This document shows positions 4,297 to 8,350 of a stretch of DNA of 34,000 bases, in pieces. The stretch is from Planctomycetaceae bacterium (GTDB lineage Bacteria; Planctomycetota; Planctomycetia; Pirellulales; Thermoguttaceae), in contig JAJFUI010000124.1 of assembly GCA_021372555.1 (NCBI GenBank), positions 1-34,000 of the forward strand. The letters run 5' to 3'. Both the position numbers and the translations under genes were made by a program. Position 1 is the stretch's first letter; each line of letters begins with the position of its first letter. A model generated the notes under the pieces. That model did no database searches. It was not told the DNA's origin and worked only from the letters and a program-made list of their open reading frames with translations.

Positions 4297-5277
4297 ATGG
4301 CTCGTTCGGACCTGATCTTGACACTCGTGAAGGCCGGCACCCGCGGAGACAACTCGTTGTTCAGGCGGGCCGCCGAGGCGCTTATCGCGGAAGAGCGCGC
4401 CAAGCAACATCATCTGCTGGCTGAGAAGCTGGCTGACGAGTTGCGGTCCAACGCCAACTCGACGTCCGCCGGTCCACTTGTGCTCGGCGATAGACTCGCG
4501 AATCTTCTCCTCGAGGTTACGCCCCGCCGAACCTTCGACGAACTTTTTCTTCCACCGGTCGTTGGGCAAGCATGTCAAGAGTTGATAGAAGAGCACAACC
4601 GGGCGGACCTGTTGCGGTCCTACAACCTAGAGCCGCGCAGCAGAATTCTTCTTCAGGGGCCACCGGGAAATGGCAAGACGTCGCTTGCGGAGGCCTTGGC
4701 ATCGGCGCTCATGGCTACGTTTCTTGTTGTTCGCTATGAAGGTGTCATAGGTACATACCTCGGGGAGACATCCGTTCGGCTGAAGCGAGTTTTCGAGTTC
4801 GCTAGCACCCGCCGATGTGTGCTGTTCTTTGACGAATTCGACACACTCGGAAAAGAGCGTGGCGATGTTCATGACACGGGTGAGATAAAGCGGGTGGTCA
4901 GCTCCCTGCTGCTTCAAATCGACGCGCTGCCGAGTCACGTGGTTGTGATCACTGCCACCAACCACGCGGAGCTTCTCGATCGGGCGGTGTGGCGGCGATT
5001 TCAATTGCATATGACGTTGCCCAAGCCCGGACGCGATGAGATCACAAAGTGGCTCTGTCACCTTGAAGAGCGTCTGGGCCAACCTATCAGCGCTCGCAGT
5101 GAACTTGTGGACAAACTGCTCGGTGCAAGCTACGCCGACATGGAGATCTTTGCTGACGCAATTAAGCGTCGATATGTGCTGTCGCTACCCGGGGGCAGAT
5201 TGGACGCCATTGCACGCGATTGTTTGCGGCAATGGCAGACCAGACGTCTTGCTTCAAACGGAGATCGATTGCCATGA
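4297..5277 (+). CDS. ietA: AAA+ ATPase of an IetAS-type defence pair
   Basis: This 326-residue AAA+ ATPase has Walker A GPPGNGKT at residues 121-128 and Walker B CVLFFDEFD with Asp179-Glu180. Sensor 1 is VITATNH and the arginine-finger segment is DRAVWRRF. The pore-loop region (RYEGVIGTYLGET) resembles classic AAA unfoldases. The N-terminal 110 residues are helical and probably recognise a partner or substrate. The stop codon overlaps the start of a subtilisin-like protease (ATGA, 5274-5277), so the two are co-translated. An AAA ATPase directly followed by an S8 protease is the IetAS arrangement, first described for plasmid incompatibility in Agrobacterium and later as a predicted and tested anti-phage system. 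A good ribosome binding site (GGGAG) lies six bases before the ATG. The ATPase assignment is firm; the defence role is inferred. Confidence 0.82.
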   Translation: MARSDLILTLVKAGTRGDNSLFRRAAEALIAEERAKQHHLLAEKLADELRSNANSTSAGPLVLGDRLANLLLEVTPRRTFDELFLPPVVGQACQELIEEHNRADLLRSYNLEPRSRILLQGPPGNGKTSLAEALASALMATFLVVRYEGVIGTYLGETSVRLKRVFEFASTRRCVLFFDEFDTLGKERGDVHDTGEIKRVVSSLLLQIDALPSHVVVITATNHAELLDRAVWRRFQLHMTLPKPGRDEITKWLCHLEERLGQPISARSELVDKLLGASYADMEIFADAIKRRYVLSLPGGRLDAIARDCLRQWQTRRLASNGDRLP

Positions 5278-7844
5278 TCGCCGAAAGACCGATTCTGATC
5301 CTTCCCGAACCGGAGAGGACGAAACGGGACGTTGATCTGCAGCATCCAGTTGATGAGACTGTTCATCGCCCACCACGTGACCGTCAGATCGATAGGATCG
5401 GCGTGCATATGGTGCATCTGGAGAATGTTCGTTCACGCGATCAGGCATACCTTCAAACGACGCCTGATGGCGCTATGCCGGAACACGTGCTGGTGCTTGA
5501 GATCATCGGCGACGTCCCGAAGTTCATCAACGCGATCAATCGTACACCCGGGCTTGAATGGCTCGGCGAATTCGAGGAGGAAGACATCCCTCCTGACGAC
5601 GACTTCTACAGGACGACGGCGAGCGGTGGTCCGCTTAATGGCAGGCTCTACCTGATCATGGCCAATCATGCGGCTATCGATCAGCTATTGTCACTTTGGG
5701 ATTGCTACAAAACCGGCAAAAAGTTCCCTTTCGGGCAAACTAAGTGGCGCGACATCTTCGACCGCCTGAAAGACGTCCGGATGTGGGGCGTGCAAGACCG
5801 ACTCAACGAGACCGGTGTCATAGAAGACTGGAGGCACCGCATTGCTAACAAGGAGGAAACGGTCCGCTTTGAGATTGAGCTTTGGTACCGTAGAAATGCA
5901 GGCACTCGGCAGGAGCGAGAAGCGGAAATTGCTGCATTAGTTAACGCGCGCAACGGAAAAGTAATCAGCAGCGCGGTCATCGACGACATCGCCTACCACG
6001 CGATCCTGGCGGAGCTGCCAATCGGCGAAATACAGGGGATCATCGAAAACGCTAACGATCACGGCGATCTCGTCAAGTGCGAAGAAGTCATGTTCTTTCG
6101 CCCCTCCGGCCAATGCGCGGCGACGCTAGCCGAAGGTCAAACCATCCCCGTCGGTGATCGCCCGCCATACCCGATCGCGGGTGGCGAGCCGGTCGTCGCC
6201 TTGCTGGACGGCCTGCCGCTGGAAAACCATCACTTGTTACGGAATCGAATCATTATTGACGACCCGGGCGATTGGCAAGTTGACTATCAAGCACAGCATC
6301 GCCAGCATGGCACCGCGATGGCGTCGCTCATCCTGCACGGCGAACTCGACACGGACGGGGCGGCCGCCACACGGCCCATTTACGCCCGGCCGATTCTTCG
6401 ACCGAATCTAGGCGTGTGGAGTGGCCCTGCGGAGCAAGTTCCCGAAGATGCCCTGCCCGTGGATCTTGTGCATCGAGCGGTGCGACGGATTTTTGAGGGC
6501 GATGGAGTCGAGGCAGCCGCAGCGCCAACTGTCAAGATCGTAAATCTGTCCGTAGGAGACGCGTCGCGACCGTTTGATAATATTCTCAGTCCCTGGGCCC
6601 GCCTTTTGGATTGGTTGGCCTTCCGCTATCAGGTGCTTTTCGTCGTAAGCGCCGGCAACCATGTTGGCCAAGACATCGAACTGGACGTGCTTCGCGACGC
6701 TTTTCGGGGGCTCTCCGCTGAGCAGCGTGAGCGGGCAGTAATCGCATCGCTTGCAGGATCGGTCCGACACCGAAGACTCTTGTCGCCTTCCGAAGCGGTA
6801 AACGTCTTGACCGTCGGTGCGCTGCACAAGGACGCATCCAGTATCGGAGCGACAAGGCTCATTAATCCATACAACGATGACCGTTTGCCCAGCCCGATTA
6901 ACGGACTTGGTTTGGGTTATCGCCGCAGCGTCAAACCTGAGGTGTTAGTCGCTGGCGGCCGTGTGCTGTACGACGAAAAGCTTGGAAATGCGCACCCGCA
7001 CGCCACCTTGGAGCTGAGAAGCACCGCGCAACCACCGGGTCAGCGCGTTGCGACACCAGGAACGAGCGGCGGTCTCGCACAAACCTGCTACCGTTGCGGA
7101 ACTAGCAATGCCGCAGCACTGACTAGCCGACTCGCCGCCCAGTACCATGAGATATTAGAGGATCTTCGCGGCTCCGACTCCGCCAGCACCCTTAGGGAGG
7201 ATTGCATTTCTGCTCTCCTTAAGGCCATGGTGGTCCACGGCGCTGCATGGGACGAAGCGGCGGATGTCTTGGCGGATGTTCTCAGGAACGGGCAGAGCGG
7301 TCGCGGCGTCAAGGACCACGTGGCAAGATTCATGGGATACGGCGGGATCAACGCTTTTCTCTTGGCTGGTTGTACTGCGCAACGTGCGACGCTTCTCGGC
7401 TGCGGAGTGCTCGCTGACGGCGACGGGGACGTCTTCGAGATTCCGCTTCCCCCAAGTCTGAATGCGAAACGGGTCTGGCGTCAGCTAACTATTACTCTTG
7501 CGTGGTTCACACCCATCGAACCAGCAAATCGAAAATATCGAAAAGCCCAACTTTGGTTCGATCCCCCGGCGAGCTCTTTAGCCCTCAGAAGGCAACACGT
7601 CGACTCTCGCACGACAAAGCGTGGCACAGTTCAGCACGAGATTCTTGAAGGAAGAGGGGCCACTGCTTTTGAGGAGGACGGCATTCTCAAGCTAAAGGTA
7701 AGCTGCCGTGCCGACGCAGGCTCATTTAGTGACGCGATCCCTTACGGTATCGCGCTATCGTTGAGAGTTGCCGAGGAAGAGTCTATTCCTATTTATAACG
7801 AAATCCGAGAACGAATCCGCGCGAGGATCCGTCCGGAAGCGTGA
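5274..7844 (+). CDS. ietS: Subtilisin-like (S8) protease of an IetAS-type defence pair
   Basis: The start is taken at the ATG overlapping the ietA stop codon, giving 856 residues; an in-frame ATG at 5220 lies deep inside ietA and is unlikely. The catalytic triad is visible as Asp312 (VVALLDG), His345 (QHGTAMASLI) and Ser611 (CGTSNAAAL), with oxyanion Asn462 (VVSAGNHV). The Ser motif is GTSNAA in place of the common GTSxAxP, as in the subtilisin-like group that accompanies AAA ATPases. Cys605 and Cys608 sit just before the catalytic Ser. About 300 residues precede the protease domain and about 230 mostly beta residues follow it. There is no signal peptide, so it should act in the cytoplasm, presumably activated or fed by the ATPase. 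The trigger and target are unknown. Confidence 0.82.
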   Translation: MIAERPILILPEPERTKRDVDLQHPVDETVHRPPRDRQIDRIGVHMVHLENVRSRDQAYLQTTPDGAMPEHVLVLEIIGDVPKFINAINRTPGLEWLGEFEEEDIPPDDDFYRTTASGGPLNGRLYLIMANHAAIDQLLSLWDCYKTGKKFPFGQTKWRDIFDRLKDVRMWGVQDRLNETGVIEDWRHRIANKEETVRFEIELWYRRNAGTRQEREAEIAALVNARNGKVISSAVIDDIAYHAILAELPIGEIQGIIENANDHGDLVKCEEVMFFRPSGQCAATLAEGQTIPVGDRPPYPIAGGEPVVALLDGLPLENHHLLRNRIIIDDPGDWQVDYQAQHRQHGTAMASLILHGELDTDGAAATRPIYARPILRPNLGVWSGPAEQVPEDALPVDLVHRAVRRIFEGDGVEAAAAPTVKIVNLSVGDASRPFDNILSPWARLLDWLAFRYQVLFVVSAGNHVGQDIELDVLRDAFRGLSAEQRERAVIASLAGSVRHRRLLSPSEAVNVLTVGALHKDASSIGATRLINPYNDDRLPSPINGLGLGYRRSVKPEVLVAGGRVLYDEKLGNAHPHATLELRSTAQPPGQRVATPGTSGGLAQTCYRCGTSNAAALTSRLAAQYHEILEDLRGSDSASTLREDCISALLKAMVVHGAAWDEAADVLADVLRNGQSGRGVKDHVARFMGYGGINAFLLAGCTAQRATLLGCGVLADGDGDVFEIPLPPSLNAKRVWRQLTITLAWFTPIEPANRKYRKAQLWFDPPASSLALRRQHVDSRTTKRGTVQHEILEGRGATAFEEDGILKLKVSCRADAGSFSDAIPYGIALSLRVAEEESIPIYNEIRERIRARIRPEA

Positions 7845-8270: not shown

Positions 8271-8326
8271 GCAGGGAGGTTGGGGTTTGCGGCGGGACTG
8301 TGCGCCCAGACAGGGGCGAGTGCATG

Positions 8327-8350
8327 GCAGGTTGACAACCTGCACCACAA
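8327..8350. repeat. Compact hairpin 5 with ACCACAA tail
   Basis: GCAGGTT and AACCTGC form a 7-bp stem with loop GAC, followed by ACCACAA. The same plan (7-bp GCAGG... stem, 3-base loop, ACCACAA) recurs at 30680-30703 in front of ftsK, so this is a dispersed repeat family. Confidence 0.6.

Follow-up and report, generated by a model that had tools for sequence, protein, structure and literature searches.

Several homologues of the IetAS gene pair are described as toxin-antitoxin systems. On Salmonella Genomic Island 1 the protease SgiT is toxic and is neutralised by the ATPase SgiA (PMC5006074), and in the mycoplasma pair T133/A132 toxicity again resides in the protease, with the ATPase as antitoxin (PMC8562856). 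The same roles are assigned to the protease and ATPase of pTiC58 by Yamamoto 2009, as cited in PMC5006074 and PMC8562856, while other IetAS have anti-phage activity, and synergy with Zorya II against phage was reported by Wu et al. (cited in PMC13427033). By description (PMC5006074, PMC8562856), SgiAT and the mycoplasma TA132/3 likewise consist of an AAA ATPase followed by a subtilisin-type protease, the mycoplasma toxin having 757 aa against 856 aa in the IetS studied here. An earlier note on this DNA held that control of the protease by the ATPase is not known for this family, and neither is what is cut; the antitoxin (IetA) and toxin (IetS) roles of these homologues qualify the first statement.

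The pair studied here lies in a window of 34,000 nucleotides (the whole stretch of DNA that was analysed) from a Planctomycetaceae bacterium, in whose genome it is present as one copy. Its features, the domains being predicted on the basis given in each line, are as follows.

4297..5277, + strand: ietA, 326 aa; AAA+ ATPase of the classical (Cdc48/p97/PAN) clade; proposed restrainer/antitoxin
5274..7844, + strand: ietS, 856 aa; S8 (subtilisin-type) serine protease; proposed latent toxin/effector
5274..5277, + strand: ATGA stop/start overlap coupling ietA and ietS, from the sequence
5484..6125, + strand: two tandem beta-alpha-beta-beta-alpha-beta (ferredoxin-like) modules, prodomain-like, IetS residues ~71-170 and ~196-284, from AF2 secondary structure and element order
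6186..7343, + strand: S8 catalytic domain, IetS residues ~305-690, with D312, H345, N462 and S611, from Pfam, invariant columns and structural matches
7383..7769, + strand: C-terminal beta jelly-roll-like domain, IetS residues ~704-832, from AF2 strand pattern and structural matches

In profile searches, both proteins match the PADLOC models over their full length, IetA to PDLC04232 (residues 1-318, E 3.7e-141) and IetS to PDLC04233 (residues 3-853, E 0), and Pfam recognises AAA in IetA (E 1.1e-28) and Peptidase_S8 in IetS (E 8.7e-16). With Walker A and B motifs in the first protein, the catalytic triad in the second and the order ietA then ietS, the overlapping genes are, by their sequence, a real and intact IetAS pair of the known protease-ATPase defence or toxin-antitoxin kind. 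The earlier identification as IetAS, and the ATGA overlap on which it drew, are thereby upheld by profile matches, anatomy and constant pairing. The NCBIfam equivalog models of the anti-phage IteA and IteS give significant scores of 207 and 73.4 bits, which are far below the cut-offs of 510 and 900 bits, and the pair thus falls outside this narrow sub-group and inside the broader PADLOC IetAS models. These low scores make the focal pair a distinct IetAS subfamily, to which function is transferred over a real distance. Both protein classes are common to the focal pair, the NCBIfam IteA/IteS models and PADLOC PDLC02195-02202, again with significant scores, but against these models the focal IetS matches mainly over its protease part. 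The best PADLOC models are shared with a Shewanella plasmid pair and with the rhizobial plasmid IetAS (PDLC04232/PDLC04233; Rhizobium sullae pWSM1592_2), the latter also having the same gene order and overlap. However, the focal pair is chromosomal and free-standing, and its IetS is ~34% identical to that of the Rhizobium sullae plasmid. The pair itself is an ordinary addition to IetAS, which it extends to a pirellulalean planctomycete, at a locus that is free-standing and looks foreign.

The Walker motifs of IetA, described earlier as intact, are located at residues 121-128 (Walker A, GPPGNGKT) and 176-181 (Walker B, LFFDEF), and are accompanied by sensor-1 N222, arginine-finger-like R233/R234 and the pore-loop aromatic Y154; the second region of homology is complete. 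Across 68 aligned IetA sequences no variation is seen at the key positions of Walker A and B, of sensor-1 and of the arginine-finger-like residues. The protein has a conserved N-terminal helical part (residues 1-50), an AAA core (76-245) and a C-terminal lid; a hydrophobic secretion-type stretch was not seen at its N-terminus. Its structure model (pLDDT 84) is nearest to p97, PAN and the proteasomal ATPases.

For IetS, the earlier note gave 856 residues and an intact triad of Asp312, His345 and Ser611, positions that prove exact and that are invariant, together with the oxyanion residue N462, in 72 aligned IetS sequences. Neither a hydrophobic N-terminal stretch nor an evident signal peptide was seen in the protein, from which I infer that IetS should act inside the cell. 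A search with its sequence against solved structures gave no match at E 0.001. The AF2 model is confident (mean pLDDT 91.6, pTM 0.93), and the N-terminal ~300 and C-terminal 230 residues, for which no domain could be named before, show recognisable folds in it. Foldseek finds as the best match 3afg (Tk-SP, a subtilase with propeptide), and also pro-Tk-subtilisin and PCSK9 with its prodomain; a second structural aligner places KP-43 first (Z 25.4, rmsd 3.4, 384 residues) and the subtilisins at Z ~23, and the alignments of KP-43 and SubHal with the model extend to residue 830. Both Tk-SP, at its C-terminus, and KP-43 have a jelly roll, and subtilases of the Tk-SP and KP-43 type are secreted enzymes. 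The model suggests that in IetS the protease is preceded by two tandem prodomain-like folds and followed by a jelly roll, the names of the non-catalytic domains being based on element order and whole-chain matches. IetS thus has in common with Tk-SP and KP-43 the catalytic fold and prodomain-like and/or jelly-roll parts, but differs from them in the absence of a signal peptide, in having two tandem prodomain-like folds and in its ATPase partner. In the alignment of relatives, conservation of the prodomain-like and jelly-roll parts is similar to that of the protease, while the linker at residues 286-304 is variable. As a prediction, this domain map is testable.

In all 80 genome relatives, IetA is located directly upstream of IetS, and although the spacing is variable, overlap or a near-zero gap is the rule (median -4 nt). 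Among 99 related genomes, the subfamily IetA is always paired, with the exception of one at a contig end. The distances of IetA and IetS are strongly correlated (mirror-tree with 68 loci, r = 0.89, with none of 1000 permutations exceeding 0.24), and the two proteins co-evolve as a unit. In four relatives (L064, L071, L089 and L122), and perhaps in a fifth (L096), IetS carries a single stop or a truncation with IetA intact. Confinement of such lesions to IetS fits a toxin, but gene length alone could account for five cases, and I rejected this polarity as proof of toxicity, the cases being too few for significance and assembly errors being possible.

The identity of the pair, its intact active sites, constant pairing, co-evolution, mobility (see below) and predicted domain layout are the observed basis for a mechanism. 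As homologues have toxin and antitoxin roles and anti-phage activity, I prefer a model in which IetA restrains a latent protease: on balance it seems probable that the horizontally acquired IetAS is a toxin-antitoxin module for abortive infection, with IetS as the latent toxin and IetA as its restrainer. IetS would be made as a latent, intracellular, subtilisin-like protease toxin, with the two prodomain-like folds and the jelly roll perhaps influencing what can reach its active site. IetA is an AAA+ ATPase of the Cdc48/PAN clade and probably a hexamer. Translated together with IetS from one message with overlapping genes, it would bind the protease, presumably by direct contact, and hold it inactive. 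Phage infection or an incoming element might then disturb IetA or the complex and release IetS, and the freed protease could cut essential proteins, so that the cell stops.

Alternatively, IetA could activate rather than restrain: as an ATP-driven remodeller it would pull at phage proteins, or at the prodomain-like folds, and supply IetS with substrates, in which case phage proteins would be destroyed and the cell would survive. The proximity of IetA to PAN, proteasomal ATPases and p97, with the pore-loop aromatic and the second region of homology retained, points in this direction, and the prodomain-like folds, whose conservation comes close to that of the catalytic domain, would suit a regulated gate. 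However, the homologous ATPases that have been tested neutralise their protease, and a mycoplasma does not survive deletion of the ATPase alone (PMC5006074, PMC8562856), so that I consider activation by IetA rather improbable.

The comparison of related genomes proposed earlier reveals a patchy occurrence of the pair. An IetS-like match of some kind is found in 18 out of 99 related genomes, the focal one included, full-length IetS of the subfamily in eight, and the presence of IetA across these 99 genomes mirrors this pattern. The nearest relative (L034), from the same family, is 62% identical in IetS and 80% in IetA, and is flanked by a SpoIIE phosphatase and a DUF4838 protein, a different locus from that of the focal pair. 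In the IetS tree phyla are mixed, and planctomycete sequences appear in many places. These are the observations that bear on a housekeeping AAA/protease pair of planctomycetes at a fixed locus, the finding that was to overturn the earlier proposal: full-length IetS in 8/99 genomes, another locus in the nearest relative and a tree that runs against taxonomy refute it, no supporting point was found, and its probability is close to nil. Third-codon GC is 0.63 and 0.61 in the two genes (0.62 overall), as compared with 0.71-0.80 in the comparison set of 13 other genes of the window. Patchy occurrence, a variable locus, a tree against taxonomy and foreign composition are thus all found for the focal pair, as for a mobile module, and it was probably acquired horizontally from elsewhere. 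A phage-borne origin was considered and rejected on a search of 50,697 phage records, none of which gave a match; viral contigs gave nine hits. Separately, a Nitrospira and a Phycisphaerae genome (L037 and L098) contain nearly identical IetS, pointing to either recent transfer across phyla or mis-binning of one of the metagenome-assembled genomes.

Relatives of IetS are also present on 98 plasmid records. On one Shewanella plasmid (L130, 1992-8598), IetAS adjoins genes for TnsD and TnsE and a helix-turn-helix gene, and is there probably Tn7-like cargo. The many plasmid copies and the foreign composition of the focal pair, together with homologues that stabilise pTiC58 and SGI1 (PMC5006074), would also suit a maintenance (addiction) module with no defence role here, a selfish toxin-antitoxin remnant of a plasmid or island. 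However, the focal pair is chromosomal, with core genes alongside, no mobile-element genes were recognised at its flanks, and relatives sit inside defence operons; this reading is accordingly quite unlikely.

The embedding in defence operons concerns three different DNA-modification systems. Recurrent neighbours of IetAS in the relatives are HsdM, HsdS, HsdR, PglX, BrxH, BrxC, PglZ, HmaB and HmaC/DUF499, and in 29 out of 80 loci a member of one or more of ten seed families is located within 6 kb, an enrichment that was judged by eye, the narrow gaps between genes being independent of this judgement. In three loci from different bacterial groups (L058, L068, L086), IetAS is embedded in BREX, between PglX (gap 0) and BrxH (gap 8). 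It is located between HsdS and HsdR in L083 and L097, with gaps or overlaps below 30 nt, and likewise in L047, with 22 and 134 nt, between HsdM and HsdS in L042, and between a helicase and HmaB of an Hma (helicase-methylase-ATPase) operon in L082. Counting those that adjoin IetAS as well as those that contain it, type I restriction (hsd) operons are seen in L042, L046, L047, L083, L088, L095 and L097, often with the pair between specificity and restriction genes. In L061, IetAS lies beside or within an Hma operon, where a large protein matching TmtA is also encoded. The embedded states are scattered over the IetS tree, which indicates that they were gained or lost more than once. As the words subtilisin and serine protease are absent from the main text of the 2026 BREX survey (PMC12839542), the association of IetAS with BREX may be unreported so far.

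PrrC offers a precedent for such an arrangement. In EcoprrI its toxin gene lies among hsd genes, like several IetAS relatives, and within this type I restriction locus the restriction enzyme silences the toxin and a phage anti-restriction peptide frees it (PMC2610378). PrrC is, however, an anticodon nuclease, and a comparable embedding in a restriction, BREX or Hma operon is found in relatives and not at the focal locus, which has no adjacent restriction genes. By analogy, the embedding suggests that IetAS can guard DNA-modification systems. A wider version seems unlikely, in which IetAS would be a general guard that, like PrrC in EcoprrI, plugs repeatedly into DNA-modification defences (type I restriction, BREX, Hma). 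It would keep quiet as long as its host system is unharmed and, once a phage puts that system out of action, set free a protease that stops the cell. Free-standing copies would then have to watch in trans, for example over a type I methylase elsewhere in the focal genome. An HsdM of the same family is indeed present there, on another contig (C79), while HmaB and PglXI were searched for in the focal genome and not found. With relatives inside three different DNA-modification defences, some at gaps of a few bases, the question of the IetAS trigger becomes approachable via the host system.

At the focal locus itself, the free-standing placement described in the earlier note is borne out, with an MFS transporter on one side and a PKD/cadherin surface protein on the other. 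The decayed DNA-binding gene reported upstream is not supported, as Pfam finds no DNA-binding domain in the remnant open reading frames, and promoter and terminator scans returned nothing above chance. An RlmL-type methyltransferase is encoded at 1146-2336 of the window and is unusually divergent, its best counterpart in 60 related genomes being 36% identical; because of this low identity, an empty-site comparison via this neighbour gave no result. The description of one stretch as repeat-rich keeps slight support: it has a single direct pair of 22 bp, and its short matches to other parts of the genome number about a dozen. After IetAS, at 8325-8350, the window contains a dispersed short repeat that matches about ten other places in the genome.
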